Assembly (NCBI GenBank): GCA_018715125.1
Contig: DVMF01000069.1
Location: 1 to 40,853, forward strand
Source: Candidatus Coprousia avicola
GTDB lineage: Bacteria; Actinomycetota; Coriobacteriia; Coriobacteriales; Coriobacteriaceae
Direction: 5' to 3'
Length of the DNA: 40,853 nucleotides
Shown: piece after piece, positions 29,606 to 35,655 of the stretch
Layout: each line of letters opens with the position of its first letter
Numbering within the stretch: position 1 is the first letter of the stretch
Program-made: the position numbers and the translations under genes
Notes under the pieces: model-generated
What the model saw: only the letters and a program-made list of their open reading frames with translations
Databases searched by the model: none
What the model was told of the DNA's origin: nothing

Positions 29606-32600
29606 ATGGAACAGCACCTCGCGCATGAAGGCGTCTCGCGGCGCGGTCTCCTCAAACTCGTGATGACGGCAGGGCTCGGGCTCGCGGCGGCGGGCACCGT
29701 CGACCCCGCCTTTGCCTACGCGGACGGGCTGGGCCTGTCGCGCGACGGCGTGAAGGCGCGCTTCTTCATCGGCAGCGACCTGCATGTTAACAACAACACG
29801 GGCGCCGAGCCGCGCGATGCGGACAAGAAGCTGCAGTTCGCCTTCGATACGGCTTACGCGCTCGACCCCGAGCTCGACGCGTTCTGCCTGGTGGGCGACC
29901 TTACCGACAACGGCAACGAGGGCCAGTACACGCGCCTCATGTCGCTCATCAACGACGGCGGCGCGCACAACGCAGGCTATGCCGACGGAGCGGGCCACAC
30001 CCAGATGATCCTTTGCCAGGGCAACCATGAGACGTATAGCCCCGGCGTGTCGAGCGCGCCGGCGCGCTTCAAGGAGTACACCGGGCAGGATGCGACCAAG
30101 GTGGTCGACGTCAACGGCGTCACCGTGATCACCATGGGGCCTGCGGCAAGCGGCTCCGGCGACGGCGACTACCGCCCGCACTACGATTGGTTTGCCGAGC
30201 AGCTCGAAACGCAGGTCGGCAACACCACCGAGCCCTTCCTCGTCCTCACGCATCACCAGATGCGCGGCTCCAGCTACACCTCGCCCGAATGGCACGGCGC
30301 CTTTGGCCAAGGTGAGGAGCGCGACTTCCAGAAGCTCATGGCCCAGTACCCCAACCTCATCCAAGTCTCGGGCCACAGCCATGCCACGCTTGAGGACGAG
30401 CGCTCCATCAGCCAGGACCTCGGCTTTACCGCCATCCAGGACGCCACCATCGGCGCGTATTACGAGAACGAGACGGGCAAGATCGACCCCGAGAGCGGCA
30501 ACGGAGCCTCGGTTCCGCCGCAGTCGGCGGACATCTACACGCCGGGCAGCTTCCGTCAGGAGGCCTCGCAGGCCGTGATCCTCGACTTCATGGAGAACAA
30601 CACCGTCAAGGCCTACCGCATCTCGCTCGTGCGCGCCAAGGCCGAGGGCGAGGGCGTCGTCTACCTGTACGAGCCGTGGATCATCGATCCCGCCGACATG
30701 CAGGCGTACACCTCCGCCCGCACCTCGACCGCCGCTCCCGTATGGCCCGCCGACGCGGCCGTGACGGTGGACGGGGTCGCCCATACCTCCGTCACGGTTC
30801 ACTTCCCCACCGCCGAGCCCGGCTCCGACCGGGGCGACGACATGGTGCATGAGTACAAACTCGTCGCCACCGCCGACGACGGCTCGAGCGTGACGAAGCG
30901 CGTCTTTAACGACTACTACCGTCCGGCCGCCTACATCCGCAACACGTGGGACGTGCTCGTGAACGGCCTCTCCGCCGAGACGACCTACACGCTCTCCGTG
31001 TACGCGCAGACCTCCTGGAACAAGGAGGCGGGCTCCGAGGGCGCCGGCACCTGGGCCGACAGCGCGGGCCCCGCCGCGAACTCCACCTCGGTCGCGCTCG
31101 TTTCCGCGCCCTTTACCACCGCCGCCCAGCCTGCGAGCCCGCGCGCGATCCTCGATATCGACTACCGCACCGGCTCGAATGAGGACGCTATGGGCCATAC
31201 CGCAACCTTTGAGGCCGGCCCCGCCGTCGTCTCGGATGAGGAGCTCGGCTATACGGTGCTGGAGGCAGACGGGCATGCCGGCTGGGGCTACCAGCTTGAG
31301 GACACCGATTACGAGGCGTTTGTGGGCGCCTCGACGCACGAGTGCCTCTTCAAGCTCGTCGACAACCAGACCGACCAGTGCCTCTTCTCAAACCAGCAGT
31401 ACGCCGGGGCGGGCTTTGAGGTGGAGAACGGCCGGATCGAGTTCTGGTACAACAACGACCAGACGCGCCGCATCATCGGCACCCCCGTCGAGACCGGCAC
31501 GTGGGTGCACGCCATCGCCACCTACGACGGCGCCAACGTCACGCTCTACGTCAACGGCGAGCAGGTCGCCCAAGAGAGCGCCGGCACCATGACCGTCCCG
31601 AGCACCAACCGCTATTTCGTCTGCTCTGACGTGAACACGTCCAACACGTCCGAGATCTGCGCCGCAGCGGGCACGCGCGTCGCTTTTGCCCGCCTCTTCC
31701 CCTATGCCATGACGGCGGGGCAGGTATCAACCGCCTTCGCCGCGAGCAAGCTCGCCCCGGCACCGGCGAAACTCCTCGACGTCGATTTTGCCGCATTCGA
31801 GGCCGGCGCCGATGTGGAGGACGCCGCCGGCCACGCTACCGTGCACCCCGAGCTCGCCGCCACCGCGTCCCTCGTTTTTGACGAGAAGCTCGGCCAGAAC
31901 GTCTTTGCCTGCGACGGCGCGAGCGCCTTTGGCTTTGCGTTTACCGAGGACGACTACACCTACCTGGGCAACGAGCACGCCCTCGAGTGCGTCTTTTTGG
32001 CCCACGACCTCGATACCGACCAGTGCTTCATCTCCAATCAGCAGAGCTCGGGCGAGGGTCTGGAGATCGCCGGAAACGGCGACACTCACGGCAAGATGGC
32101 CTTCTGGTTCAATTCCAACGGCTCGGGCACACCCAAGCCCGCCGGTGCCGTGAGCGCCGACGTCTGGCACCACGCCATCGGCGTCTATGCCTGCGGCAAG
32201 GTGCGCCTGTATATCGACGGCAAGCTGTGCGAGGAGCTTGAGGCCGAGGGCGGTCTTGAGGTGCCGCCCGCGAACTGCCGCAACTACTACGTGGGCGCAG
32301 ACGTCTACACCGGCGGCGGGGCGCAGATCTTCACCCAGACCGGCTCCAAGATCGCCCGCGCGGCCATTCTCGCCAAAGCTCCCTCGCGCGAGGAGATCGC
32401 CCAGCTGGCAGCGGGCTTCCCGCTCGACCCCAACGCACCCGAGCCCGTCGACAAGACGGCGCTTGCCGAGGCCGTGGACGCGTCCGCCCAACTTGTCGGG
32501 AGCGATTGGACGGCCGCCTCGTGGCAGGTGTTTGCAACCGCGCTCGCTGAGGCCAAGGCGGTGCTCGACGATGCGGCCTCCTCGCAGGAGGAGGTCGACG

Positions 32601-32965
32601 CCGCACTGGACGCACTCGAGAGCGCTAAGGCAAACCTCGTGAAGGCCTCCAGCGGCGGCACGGGCGCGGGTGACGGCGGCAACACGGGCACGGGCGACGG
32701 CGGCAACACCGGCGGCGGCAACACCGGTGCGGGCACCGGCGGCAACGGCGGCAGCGCCAATGGCGGCAACACCGGCTCGAAGAAGCCCTCGTCCAAGCTC
32801 CCCTCCACCGGTGACGCCCCGCTTCTGGCCGGCGGCATCGCGAGCCTTCTGGGCGCAACGACCCTCAGCGCCGGCCTGCTCGCCCTACGGCACCGCGCCC
32901 CGCAAACAACCGCGGGAGACGACCTCGCTCAAGCCCTGGCTGAGGACGATGACATCGACGCATAG
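29606..32965 (+). CDS. Tat-exported, LPXTG-anchored metallophosphoesterase with two LamG-like domains
   Basis: The 1119-residue surface protein opens with a twin-arginine signal (SRRGLLKLVM, Arg12-Arg13; likely cleavage after AFA at 37). A calcineurin-type phosphoesterase follows with all metal motifs: GSDLH (Asp58, His60), GDLTDNG, GNHE, THHQ and GHSH. After a fibronectin-like linker (about 370-510) come two LamG/concanavalin-like domains (about 510-715 and 718-940) that share DQCLFSNQQ/DQCFISNQQ. A FIVAR domain spans 949-1014 and a Gly/Asn/Thr-rich stretch 1015-1060. LPSTG at 1065-1069 is followed by a hydrophobic segment and an unusually long acidic tail. Sortase anchoring and action on a host or wall glycan are inferred. 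AAGGAG precedes the ATG. Confidence 0.9.
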   Translation: MEQHLAHEGVSRRGLLKLVMTAGLGLAAAGTVDPAFAYADGLGLSRDGVKARFFIGSDLHVNNNTGAEPRDADKKLQFAFDTAYALDPELDAFCLVGDLTDNGNEGQYTRLMSLINDGGAHNAGYADGAGHTQMILCQGNHETYSPGVSSAPARFKEYTGQDATKVVDVNGVTVITMGPAASGSGDGDYRPHYDWFAEQLETQVGNTTEPFLVLTHHQMRGSSYTSPEWHGAFGQGEERDFQKLMAQYPNLIQVSGHSHATLEDERSISQDLGFTAIQDATIGAYYENETGKIDPESGNGASVPPQSADIYTPGSFRQEASQAVILDFMENNTVKAYRISLVRAKAEGEGVVYLYEPWIIDPADMQAYTSARTSTAAPVWPADAAVTVDGVAHTSVTVHFPTAEPGSDRGDDMVHEYKLVATADDGSSVTKRVFNDYYRPAAYIRNTWDVLVNGLSAETTYTLSVYAQTSWNKEAGSEGAGTWADSAGPAANSTSVALVSAPFTTAAQPASPRAILDIDYRTGSNEDAMGHTATFEAGPAVVSDEELGYTVLEADGHAGWGYQLEDTDYEAFVGASTHECLFKLVDNQTDQCLFSNQQYAGAGFEVENGRIEFWYNNDQTRRIIGTPVETGTWVHAIATYDGANVTLYVNGEQVAQESAGTMTVPSTNRYFVCSDVNTSNTSEICAAAGTRVAFARLFPYAMTAGQVSTAFAASKLAPAPAKLLDVDFAAFEAGADVEDAAGHATVHPELAATASLVFDEKLGQNVFACDGASAFGFAFTEDDYTYLGNEHALECVFLAHDLDTDQCFISNQQSSGEGLEIAGNGDTHGKMAFWFNSNGSGTPKPAGAVSADVWHHAIGVYACGKVRLYIDGKLCEELEAEGGLEVPPANCRNYYVGADVYTGGGAQIFTQTGSKIARAAILAKAPSREEIAQLAAGFPLDPNAPEPVDKTALAEAVDASAQLVGSDWTAASWQVFATALAEAKAVLDDAASSQEEVDAALDALESAKANLVKASSGGTGAGDGGNTGTGDGGNTGGGNTGAGTGGNGGSANGGNTGSKKPSSKLPSTGDAPLLAGGIASLLGATTLSAGLLALRHRAPQTTAGDDLAQALAEDDDIDA

Positions 32966-33107: not shown

Positions 33108-33941
33108 TTAGAACGCCGCCTGCACGGAGTCGCCAAACGTCTCCTCGAGGTAGGCCTTGAAGTCTTCGGTCTGGAGCACCTGGACGAGAGCCACGATGCA
33201 CTCGTCATCCTCGAGCTCGGGGCGGGTGCAGATGACGTTCGCGTACTCCTCGGCGATGACCGCGGAATCAGCGCTCTCCTGCGCCACGGCATCGACAAGC
33301 GAGAGGCCCGCATCGATGGCGTAGTTGCCGTTGATGACGGCAAAGTCGACGTCGGCGAGCGTGGAGGGGAGCATGGCCGCCTCCTGCTCGGAGAACTGGA
33401 TGTTGTGCGGGTTGTCCACGATGTCGTTGGGGGTCGCCTCGAGCCCGGCGTCATCGGAGAGCGTGATCACACCCTGCTCCTGCAGAAGCAGCAGGGCACG
33501 GCCCTCATTGGTGGGGTCGTTGGGGATGGAGATGGTGGCGCCGTCGGCAATCGCGGCGAGATCCGTCGAGCGCCCTGCGAACACGCCCATCGGCTCGAAG
33601 TGGATCTTGCCGGCGTTGACGAGGTCGGTGCCGTTCTCGGCGTTGTAGTTGTTGAGGTAGTTGATGTGCTGGAAGTAGTTGGCATCCAGGTCGCCGGAGG
33701 TAACGTCCTGGTTGGGCTTGATGTAGTCGGTGTACTCCGTCACCTCGAGCGTGATGCCCTGCTCCTCAAGACGCGGCGCGACGAAGTCGTTCAGGATCTC
33801 GGCGTGCGGGCTCGGCGAGGCGCCGATCTTGAGGGTGCCGTGCTCGTGCGAGGCCTGGCCGCCGCAACCGGCGAGCGTCGAGGCGGCGAGCACCGCCGCG
33901 GAGGCGAAGAGGGAGCGGCGGGAAAGCGAGAAGTTCTGCAT
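33108..33941 (-). CDS. metQ: Methionine ABC transporter, substrate-binding lipoprotein
   Basis: The 277-residue NlpA-family lipoprotein has a signal peptide with a lipobox (STLAGC, Cys26), so it is anchored to the outer face of the membrane. The binding fold shows the family features KIGASPSPHAEIL, TEYTDYIKPNQDV, DANYFQHINYL and ISIPNDPTNEGRALLLLQ. It delivers methionine to MetI. A longer frame begins at a TTG at 33956, but the ATG at 33941 sits at the correct distance from AAAGGA. It is the last gene of metN-metI-metQ, 71 bp after metI. The specificity call rests on the operon layout and family. Confidence 0.92.
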   Translation of the reverse strand: MQNFSLSRRSLFASAAVLAASTLAGCGGQASHEHGTLKIGASPSPHAEILNDFVAPRLEEQGITLEVTEYTDYIKPNQDVTSGDLDANYFQHINYLNNYNAENGTDLVNAGKIHFEPMGVFAGRSTDLAAIADGATISIPNDPTNEGRALLLLQEQGVITLSDDAGLEATPNDIVDNPHNIQFSEQEAAMLPSTLADVDFAVINGNYAIDAGLSLVDAVAQESADSAVIAEEYANVICTRPELEDDECIVALVQVLQTEDFKAYLEETFGDSVQAAF

Positions 33942-34012
33942 GATGATTCCTTTCAAGAAAAGCGATGGCTATACGTTGTGGCAGACCGGACGGCACGACC
34001 GGTCTGAGATGC

Positions 34013-34699
34013 TCAGGAGCGCGCGGAGCGATGGTCCACCTTGCGCGCGAGGATATCGCACGCGCTCTGGATGATCTGGACGAGCACCACCAGGATGATG
34101 ACGGCGGCGAGCATGACATCGGACTGGTAGCGATAGTAACCGTAGCGGATGGCGATGTCGCCCAGACCGCCCGCGCCGACGGCACCGGCGATGGCCGTGT
34201 AGCCGAGGACGGAGATGAGGACGACGGCCACGCCGCGGACGATGGAGGGCAGCGCCTCGGGCAACAGCGCCGAGAAGACGATGCGCGGCACGGAGGCACC
34301 GCAGGCCTCGACGGCCTCGACGCTCTCGCGCGGGACCTCTGCGAGCGACTGCTCGATCATGCGGGCGATGAAGGGCGAGGCCGAGAGCACGAGCGGCGGG
34401 ATGGTGCCGAGGATGCCCGAACCCGTCCCCATGATGAGGCGCGTGAACGGGATGATGAACACCATGAGCACGATGAACGGGAACGAGCGGAGGATGTTGA
34501 CCACCCAGCCGAGCACCGCGTTAAGCACCGGTAGGGGGCGCAGCGACCCCGGGGCGGTGAGGTAGAGCACCACGCCCAAGGCAAGGCCGATGATATAGGA
34601 GAGCGCCGTCGGGACGAGCACCATGATGATGGTCGAGCCCGTGCCCTCGAGCAGAAGCTCGCCGTACTCGGCGATAAAGGCACCTACGGTATCAAGCAT
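34013..34699 (-). CDS. metI: Methionine ABC transporter, permease
   Basis: The 228-residue membrane protein has five or so hydrophobic segments and the ABC-interaction loop ESVEAVEACGASVPRIVFSALLPEALPSI. LRSFPFIVLMVFIIPFTR and GGLGDIAIRYGYYRYQSDVM are typical of MetI. The ATG at 34699 overlaps the end of metN by 8 bp, pointing to coupled translation; the longer frame to 34801 is a shadow of metN. It forms the membrane channel for methionine uptake with two MetN subunits. Confidence 0.95.
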   Translation of the reverse strand: MLDTVGAFIAEYGELLLEGTGSTIIMVLVPTALSYIIGLALGVVLYLTAPGSLRPLPVLNAVLGWVVNILRSFPFIVLMVFIIPFTRLIMGTGSGILGTIPPLVLSASPFIARMIEQSLAEVPRESVEAVEACGASVPRIVFSALLPEALPSIVRGVAVVLISVLGYTAIAGAVGAGGLGDIAIRYGYYRYQSDVMLAAVIILVVLVQIIQSACDILARKVDHRSARS

Positions 34700-35441
34700 C
34701 CCAATCAACCCTTTCGAGCAGCACCTGCGCCGCATGCGAACGGGGGTTGGCGAAGACATCCGCCACGCTCCCCTGCTCGACCACGCGACCGTGCTCGACA
34801 ACAGCGACGTTGCGGCAGATCTTCTCGACCACGCCCATGGAGTGGGTGATGACGATGATCGTGACGCCCGTCTGACGGTTGATGTCGCGCAGGAGCTTTA
34901 AGATCGTGTTCGTGCTCGCCGGGTCGAGGGCGCTCGTCGCCTCGTCGCAGAGGATGTACTCGGGATCGCATGCAAGCGCGCGGGCGATGGCGACGCGTTG
35001 CTGCTGCCCGCCGGAGAGCTGAGACGGATAGGACGATGCCTTGTCTTTGAGACCGACCATGTCGAGCAGCTCGAGGGCGCGCTCACGGTTGGCGGCCGTC
35101 ACCTTGCCCGTCGCCGCCTTATACGGGAAGCACACGTTGGCAAGCACGGTCTTTTGCGAGAGCAGGCCGAAGTTCTGGAAGATCATGGCCACGCGGCGGC
35201 GATACGTGCGCAGAGCCGCCCCGGTAAGACCGGTGACATCCTGCCCATCGACGACGATGCTGCCCGACGTGGGCTGCTCGAGCAGGTTGATGCAGCGCAC
35301 GAGCGTCGACTTGCCGGCACCGCTCATACCGATGATGCCCATGATGTCACGGTCGGCGATGGTAAGCGAGACGTCATCGAGCGCATGGGCCGTACCAGCA
35401 GCGCTCTCATACGTCTTGGTCAGATGTTTGATTTCAATCAC
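34692..35441 (-). CDS. metN: Methionine ABC transporter, ATP-binding protein (short form)
   Basis: The 249-residue ATPase has Walker A (GMSGAGKST), the Q-loop (MIFQNFGLLSQKTV), signature LSGGQQQRVAIARAL, Walker B (YILCDEATSALD) and H-loop (ITHSMGVV). The MIEIKHLTKTY start and the NFGLLSQKTVLANV loop are typical of MetN. It ends at about 250 residues and lacks the C-terminal NIL domain (about 90 residues) that senses methionine in E. coli MetN. Transport is therefore probably not trans-inhibited. The start is a GTG at 35441 with a weak GCGGAG site. A Met-rich leader frame lies upstream. Confidence 0.94.
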   Translation of the reverse strand: MIEIKHLTKTYESAAGTAHALDDVSLTIADRDIMGIIGMSGAGKSTLVRCINLLEQPTSGSIVVDGQDVTGLTGAALRTYRRRVAMIFQNFGLLSQKTVLANVCFPYKAATGKVTAANRERALELLDMVGLKDKASSYPSQLSGGQQQRVAIARALACDPEYILCDEATSALDPASTNTILKLLRDINRQTGVTIIVITHSMGVVEKICRNVAVVEHGRVVEQGSVADVFANPRSHAAQVLLERVDWDA

Positions 35442-35479
35442 GGGGAAACTCCGCTCGATGAGGTGGTCTCAAACAGGCG

Positions 35480-35503
35480 AACAGCCTCCCGCCGGAGACT
35501 GTT
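35480..35503 (-). promoter_or_regulatory. Leader hairpin between the Met-rich frame and metN
   Basis: In the RNA, a 10-bp stem (35494-35503 with 35480-35489, one G-U pair) has a GGCG loop. Its 5' arm starts on the last base of the leader stop codon, so a ribosome reaching the stop would melt it. No U-run follows, so it is not a standard terminator. CUCCG in the 5' arm can instead pair with CGGAG in the metN ribosome site, giving a possible translational switch. Confidence 0.45.
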
Positions 35504-35619
35504 TAACGAAGGCGCCCGGTCTTTCCCTGCACGCGGCAATCGCGCGGCATGACAAAGTGCCCGGGCGAGGGCATCTGCATGACCATCATCATCGTGATAT
35601 GTGCGGAAGTCGTAATCAT
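35503..35619 (-). CDS. Candidate methionine-rich leader peptide of metNIQ
   Basis: The frame encodes 38 residues with Met at positions 1, 10, 11, 12, 14, 16 and 24; the core is MMMVMQM. It ends 61 bp before metN. The promoter at 35627-35655 would start transcription at or one base before the ATG, so the message would be leaderless. No ribosome site is present, which agrees with this. Leaderless leader peptides are known in other actinobacterial amino-acid operons. A ribosome slowed at the Met codons would change the fold around the following hairpin and metN start. This is inference from sequence; the CAT-rich DNA could give Met codons by chance, but its position before a methionine transporter argues against that. 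Confidence 0.6.
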   Translation of the reverse strand: MITTSAHITMMMVMQMPSPGHFVMPRDCRVQGKTGRLR

Positions 35620-35626
35620 GGTGTTT

Positions 35627-35655
35627 AGGGTAACAGTGAGGGAAGCCGAGTGCAA
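35627..35655 (-). promoter_or_regulatory. Promoter of the met leader and metNIQ
   Basis: On the minus strand TTGCAC (35650-35655) and TACCCT (35627-35632) are exactly 17 bp apart. The expected start is at 35619-35620, the first base of the leader ATG. The terminator of the upstream asp23 gene ends about 60 bp before this promoter, so the unit is transcribed on its own. Confidence 0.55.

Follow-up and report, generated by a model that had tools for sequence, protein, structure and literature searches.

A short open reading frame with a run of methionine codons lies directly 5′ of metNIQ in a 40,853-nucleotide contig of Candidatus Coprousia avicola (the window, i.e., the whole stretch of DNA analysed), and it probably works as a ribosome-mediated methionine attenuator that acts on the initiation of metN translation. 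The 5′ half of this leader, Met codons included, is complementary to the Shine-Dalgarno (SD) region of the target gene, and computation over relatives showed the complementarity to be lineage-specific. As in attenuators, the cognate codons stand in a short frame immediately 5′ of the cognate genes, and the conservation of this frame suggests that it is translated. Such a design, kept throughout a class with both gut and environmental members, would probably switch methionine import on when methionine is short. The coordinates of the features are collected in Table 1.

Table 1. Features of the metN leader, its promoter and the genes that follow, in window coordinates.
Feature	Position	Strand	Basis or remark
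-35 element TTGCAC	35650..35655	-	Sequence; TTGN 17-18 nt from the -10 box in 55/63 relatives
-10 element TACCCT	35627..35632	-	Sequence; 7 nt 5′ of the leader ATG
Leader ORF MITTSAHITMMMVMQMPSPGHFVMPRDCRVQGKTGRLR, then stop; 38 codons	35503..35619	-	In frame with the Met/PG core in 63/63 relatives
Long-range helix, 5′ strand (predicted)	35573..35612	-	Leader codons ~3-16, Met run included
Met-codon run MMMVMQM, codons 10-16	35572..35592	-	Sequence; Met codons kept in frame in relatives
Hairpin arm A, GCCCGG	35561..35566	-	5 nt past the last Met codon of the run
Hairpin arm B, CCGGGC	35514..35519	-	Pairs with arm A
Hairpin C, AACAGTCTCC-GGCG-GGAGGCTGTT, 10 bp	35480..35503	-	Begins on the last base of the stop codon
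Long-range helix, 3′ strand (predicted), TTTGAGACCACCTCATCGAGCGGAGTTT	35446..35473	-	Overlaps the metN SD
metN SD region GCGGAG	35449..35454	-	Sequence
metN, methionine ABC transporter ATP-binding protein, GTG start	34692..35441	-	TIGR02314 best match
metI, permease, first-start ORF	34013..34801	-	NF008049 MetI best match, PF00528
metQ, substrate-binding lipoprotein	33108..33956	-	PF03180; MetQ models best (NF008285)

The two promoter elements are separated by a 17-nt spacer, and the leader ATG is at 35619 on the minus strand. Transcription would start on this ATG of the Met-codon frame, as it does in leaderless upstream ORFs of the polycysteine type. A strict sigma-70 consensus scan of the window did not call the promoter, yet it was accepted because the -10/-35 layout is conserved among relatives: of 63 loci, 49 place the end of TANNNT 7 nt from the ATG, 12 place it at 8-9 nt and one at 6 nt. 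Counting the start Met, the frame has seven Met codons, and the run sits within its first half. The stop codon occupies 35505-35503, and the metN GTG at 35441 is 61 nt past it. A preliminary description of this DNA had proposed the 17-bp-spaced promoter with its start on the ATG of a 38-codon frame, which was read directly here and whose layout is kept in relatives; its Met-rich frame, with the stop adjoining a 10-bp hairpin and metN 61 bp further on, was likewise confirmed from the sequence. The alignment of related genomes that it had suggested was carried out, and the frame, the Met codons and the promoter on the ATG were found to be kept while other codons vary.

This conservation could be quantified. 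The ATG and the core ATGCCCNNGCCCGGG share one frame in all 63 loci, at an interval of 13-27 codons that is always a multiple of three nucleotides. Internal ATGs fall in frames 0/+1/+2 as 202/2/0 in 43 non-redundant metN leaders and as 131/1/0 in 23 leaders that precede metY (see below). The metN set, in which a few genomes are counted twice, holds 245 Met codons in frame where shuffled sequences predict 16, with 131 against 7 and 34 against 2 in two further groups, i.e., some 15 to 20 times the counts of shuffled sequence across the groups. These computed counts indicate that a frame selected for Met codons is translated. Except at the Met run and the paired codons, the peptide differs in sequence and length, and its stop ranges among relatives from 52 nt before the end of arm B to 8 nt after it. 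A small functional protein encoded 5′ of metN, or the chance conservation of an untranslated region, would agree with the persistence of a short ORF, but is extremely improbable given this variation of peptide, length and stop outside the Met run and paired codons, and given that no protein family was matched; neither a protein family nor an Rfam family describes the leader. The core codons CCC, CCC and GGG show zero synonymous variation among the 63 loci, as would be expected if the RNA, and not the peptide alone, sets the constraint. The same codons bear on the idea that methionine or SAM, and not uncharged tRNA, makes the nascent peptide M-x-M-P-x-P-G arrest the ribosome. Sequences of the PxPG kind can be translated slowly, and the M, P and G residues around the core are kept; the P-G is, however, accounted for by the CCC GGG codons of the A:B helix, the residues between and after the core ones vary class-wide, and the first P is replaced by T in the metY leaders, which makes such an arrest very improbable.

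The Met run is not equally long everywhere. In some lineages it is reduced to two Met (LMRQQM), which counts against an attenuator. Two loci depart further from the common form. In Parafannyhessea umbonata (L068, about 2899-2958), a leaderless-looking ORF 5′ of metN has no internal Met (MFLLVLPIGEPSGDYLLVA), and it may be a natural exception, either unregulated or differently regulated. In the low-GC relative Atopobium deltae (L075, about 2710-2830), a degenerate leader, MKNLPTYSSVIVQTQWML, ends at the hairpin A arm.

The pairing between the leader and the SD region was followed in the window and among relatives. The window RNA folds with a z of -2.6 against dinucleotide shuffles, and its own fold is a closed three-way structure in which a helix between codons ~3-16 and the metN SD region encloses hairpins A:B and C. 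In a 99%-identical relative (L010), the duplex of CGACTTCCGC...CAGAT with the SD region reaches a z of -4.8 against shuffles. In a permutation test, the 5′ halves of the leaders were paired with 30-nt windows along their own transcripts and with permuted partners, a procedure that ignores shared ancestry. The native leader/SD duplexes were the more stable both for metN (-22.5 against -19.7 kcal/mol, z -6.5, n=43, kinship ignored) and for metY (-22.4 against -18.0 kcal/mol, z -6.9, n=23, kinship ignored). The signal is sharp at -30..-1 relative to the target gene (p at most 0.0005, 2000 permutations), with the overlapping -45..-16 window behaving likewise, and it was not seen in most coding windows beyond +15 nor, for metN, deeper in the coding region. 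For metY it extends to about +29, which seems to reflect a pairing of the leader's own SD with the start of the gene as well, and one later window reaches a z of only -2.2. The partners change together: in L163, GUGUUUGUGAUGAUGA pairs with CAUCGACACAAACA, and in L143, where CAGUUCGUGAUGAUGA pairs with CAUCGACACGAACA, a synonymous change of a Phe codon is met by the opposite base. This Phe codon of the metY leaders, TTC or TTT, stands opposite G or A. The signal is weak in an Eggerthellaceae-like group (z about -1 to -2.5, n=9), in which some helices lie 5′ of the SD. The preliminary description had assigned the CUCCG of the downstream hairpin as the partner of the metN SD (CGGAG), which did not hold up, the conserved and covarying partner being the leader's own 5′ half. 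As the main means of SD sequestration the CUCCG:CGGAG pairing was rejected, since the CUCCG arm is replaced in several lineages while hairpin C is kept.

The proposed mechanism follows from this arrangement. With transcription starting at the ATG, every mRNA would begin with the leader frame. When charged Met-tRNA is ample, the ribosome would pass the Met codons quickly, and the three-way fold could then form, in which codons ~3-16 pair over and just 5′ of the metN SD and enclose A:B and C, resulting in poor translation of metN. When Met-tRNA is short, the ribosome would halt on the Met codons and mask the 5′ strand of the helix; with this strand covered, the SD would be freed and the importer made. 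That uncharged Met-tRNA would stall the ribosome, and that the response would run in this direction, are both drawn by analogy from the established logic of attenuators. In the folding model, a ribosome masking the first Met codon lowers the energy needed to open the SD and start from 10.7 to 9.0 kcal/mol for metN and from 16.6 to 11.9 kcal/mol for metY, with a drop in 32 of 43 metN and 19 of 23 metY sequences; a ribosome at the leader stop brings no average change, and one on the last Met codon opens the site less. Both the leader/SD helix and A:B change with the position of the ribosome in these computations, and the model, which is purely thermodynamic, yields a modest gain in SD accessibility.

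The same stall could instead act on transcription, if a ribosome halted on the Met codons favored hairpins that prevent intrinsic or Rho-dependent termination before metN. Two conserved hairpins do lie between the Met run and metN, as in classical attenuators, a hairpin trailed by T-rich sequence occurs in seven of the 43 metN leaders, and an involvement of Rho would be compatible. Against this, no terminator-like site was found between the leader stop and metN in the window, nor in 36 of 43 metN and 22 of 23 metY leaders (one metY leader has such a site), and the covarying partner of the leader is the SD region, so that control of transcription is unlikely. Attenuation of the classical, terminator-based trp/his type was rejected on the same 7/43 count, with which the preference for translational control over intrinsic termination expressed in the preliminary description also agrees. 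The drop in opening energy, together with the rarity of terminator-like sites, favors a translational derepression under methionine shortage, and the control is accordingly placed, tentatively, at translation rather than transcription. In some Collinsella and Enorma (L020, L022, L042, L058 and L063), a second pairing, such as GGCGGG...CCCGCC, with a T-rich stretch behind it resembles an intrinsic terminator that overlaps hairpin C.

The most conserved hairpin is A:B, within the leader frame, ahead of the downstream hairpin C. A:B is formed, with 100% of its pairs, in 49 of 49 sequences drawn from different groups, and none of 500 shuffles equalled this percentage; two of its pairs show two-sided compensatory changes (C-G to U-A in five, G-C to A-U in one). 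An alternative pairing, UGCCC:GGGCA, which uses arm A twice, is possible against GCCCGG:CCGGGC, and it is invariant and so yields no covariation signal. Hairpin C (full sequence AACAGTCTCCGGCGGGAGGCTGTT) overlaps the leader stop codon by one base, and two-sided changes occur at each of its nine pairs that were counted in 43 relatives; no U-run follows it in the window. Another candidate pairing, between GGAGAC of arm B and GUCUCC of the 5′ arm of hairpin C, was judged by eye and set aside as not conserved. The motif ACATA (window 35593-35604), about 17-18 nt past the leader ATG, keeps its sequence in L061 and L065 although the frame shifts there. In Coriobacteriaceae it falls within an internal loop of the long-range helix; in the Eggerthellaceae-like group it is part of that helix, and the metY leaders have no such motif.

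The near-invariance of A:B, of a GCA/A internal loop and of ACATA is not accounted for by attenuation and counts against it. Constraint at the level of the RNA would be explained by a methionine or SAM riboswitch that happens to hold an open frame, with the ribosome sensing nothing: ACATA and GCA are near-invariant and unpaired, the CCC and GGG codons do not vary, and ACATA is constant where the reading frame changes. Such a riboswitch is nevertheless quite improbable, as the Met codons and the frame survive indels of 3n (internal ATGs in frame, 202/2/0), the metY version, which has no ACATA, combines a strong SD with, as a rule, six Met among seven codons, and Rfam returned no match. At the gathering threshold Rfam gave 0 matches anywhere in the window, and relaxing the cut-off to E 10 added only chance-level ones. 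A SAM-I riboswitch is present in some further families of the order, whereas 25 Coriobacteriaceae genomes yielded none; the earlier suggestion that the leader substitutes for a SAM riboswitch is compatible with this distribution but not proven by it.

The leader, read as a translational attenuator, extends well beyond the window. Starting from MetN relatives in named genomes, the same leader was found 5′ of metN in 63 Coriobacteriaceae and Atopobiaceae loci, in genera that include Collinsella, Enorma, Olsenella, Thermophilibacter and Tractidigestivibacter. A sequence-only model (R1) run on 398 genomes of the class matched 76 of them at E below 1e-9, with weaker but consistent matches in other families, the family names beyond the named loci being presumptive. 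Among these are 23 loci in other orders of the class with a homologous leader (MMMDMMMTQPG; peptide, e.g., MVRFAAFVMMMDMMMTQPGSSRACEGSGRLGHPAVA) that has its own invariant SD, GGAGGTG, and is placed 40-61 nt 5′ of metY. The identity of metY was supported by three tested proteins, which match TIGR01326 (O-acetylhomoserine aminocarboxypropyltransferase) above its cut-off. A third, Eggerthellaceae-like family has a leaderless version 5′ of metN, e.g., MSFEFVHTMLNMMMHMPKPGSVGVCVDAQA in L171. Taken together, these computations associate the leader with metN or metY throughout the class, as far as sequence can tell. Somewhat better than an even chance is given to the broader reading, namely a class-wide family for both import (metNIQ) and synthesis (metY), whose Met codons would be the sensor as well as part of the strand that hides the SD, and the waiting ribosome would itself remove the repressor strand.

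In twelve genomes of one Collinsella clade, the leader is missing or only falsely matched, and a close metN is missing too, the best metN matches there being ABC ATPases of 41-42% identity. The weak R1 matches L167-L170 (Collinsella), L178 and L181-L186 were rejected as unrelated to Met genes, mostly lying in apparent coding sequence. No second copy of the element rose above noise in the window's own genome, and in a search (R2) of 396 sampled genomes of the phylum, the ten best matches inspected outside the class fall inside long coding frames.

Ribosome-mediated attenuators are textbook examples for Trp, His, Leu, Ile/Val, Thr, Phe and Cys, while the control of methionine genes is usually credited to SAM riboswitches, T-boxes or repressors. 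A methionine attenuator with strong comparative support, spread over a class that includes the gut genera Collinsella, Olsenella and Enorma, would fill this gap, and, if the reading is right, a single run of codons would be both the sensor and the anti-SD strand. The nearest tested system is that of the mycobacterial polycysteine leaderless uORFs, which Canestrari and colleagues (Mol Microbiol, 2020) reportedly tested as an attenuator of sulfur amino-acid genes. Compared by description, both are leaderless short ORFs with a run of the sensed codon, but the mycobacterial ones sense cysteine and differ in the genes and in the RNA. The erm and cat translational attenuators, in which a stalled leader ribosome frees the SD of the next gene, share that release with the proposed metN switch; there, however, an antibiotic stalls the ribosome and a separate hairpin hides the SD, whereas here the sensing codons would be part of the hiding strand.

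Among Actinobacteria, attenuators for Trp, Cys and Leu/Ilv were described by Seliverstov et al. in 2005, in a survey that found no conserved structures 5′ of genes of other amino-acid pathways (PMC1262725). The actinobacterial Cys leaders follow the same general logic as the present one and have no terminators (PMC1262725). The 2021 re-annotation of Streptomyces lividans TK24 lists a leaderless metL peptide 5′ of metNIQ as a proposed attenuator (PMC8079986). By its entry there, metL resembles the present leader in being leaderless, actinobacterial and 5′ of metNIQ, with no clear Rho-independent terminator, but the two internal Met of its peptide (MSTTSDRTPATEATTTPGARCMCRRMCAF) are scattered, a PG hairpin core preceded by a Met run is missing, and the entry, compared here by description only, offers no comparative, covariation or SD-pairing evidence (PMC8079986). 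Among open-licence papers this was the only Met leader peptide found, and none was found on Coriobacteriia leader peptides or on a metY leader. The preliminary description had regarded a Met-codon attenuator of metNIQ as undescribed in Coriobacteriia; the idea of a metNIQ leader peptide is not entirely new, one having been listed for S. lividans. The metY version, the class-wide conservation and the pairing of Met codons with the SD appear to be new. The leader is also a new RNA family for annotation, and Collinsella stercoris DSM 13279, C. intestinalis DSM 13280 and Enorma massiliensis are at hand as strains for testing.

The genes behind the leader are in the order expected of the transporter, MetN being followed by MetI and then MetQ. 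The methionine-transporter models are the best for all three, and the NCBIfam bit scores are all below the curated cut-offs (316 bits for MetN against TIGR02314, with a cut-off of 499.7). The true start of metI probably lies downstream of that of the first-start ORF. In several Collinsella and Atopobiaceae loci (L048, L050, L052 and L056-L059), MetN has its usual start while the tblastn match to the window's MetN begins about 140-190 nt later, which suggests that some tens of residues are inserted near the N-terminus. Elsewhere in the window, a large ORF on the plus strand (29606-32965) apparently encodes a metallophosphoesterase-like surface protein, with an LPSTGD cell-wall sorting motif seen by eye near its C-terminus.
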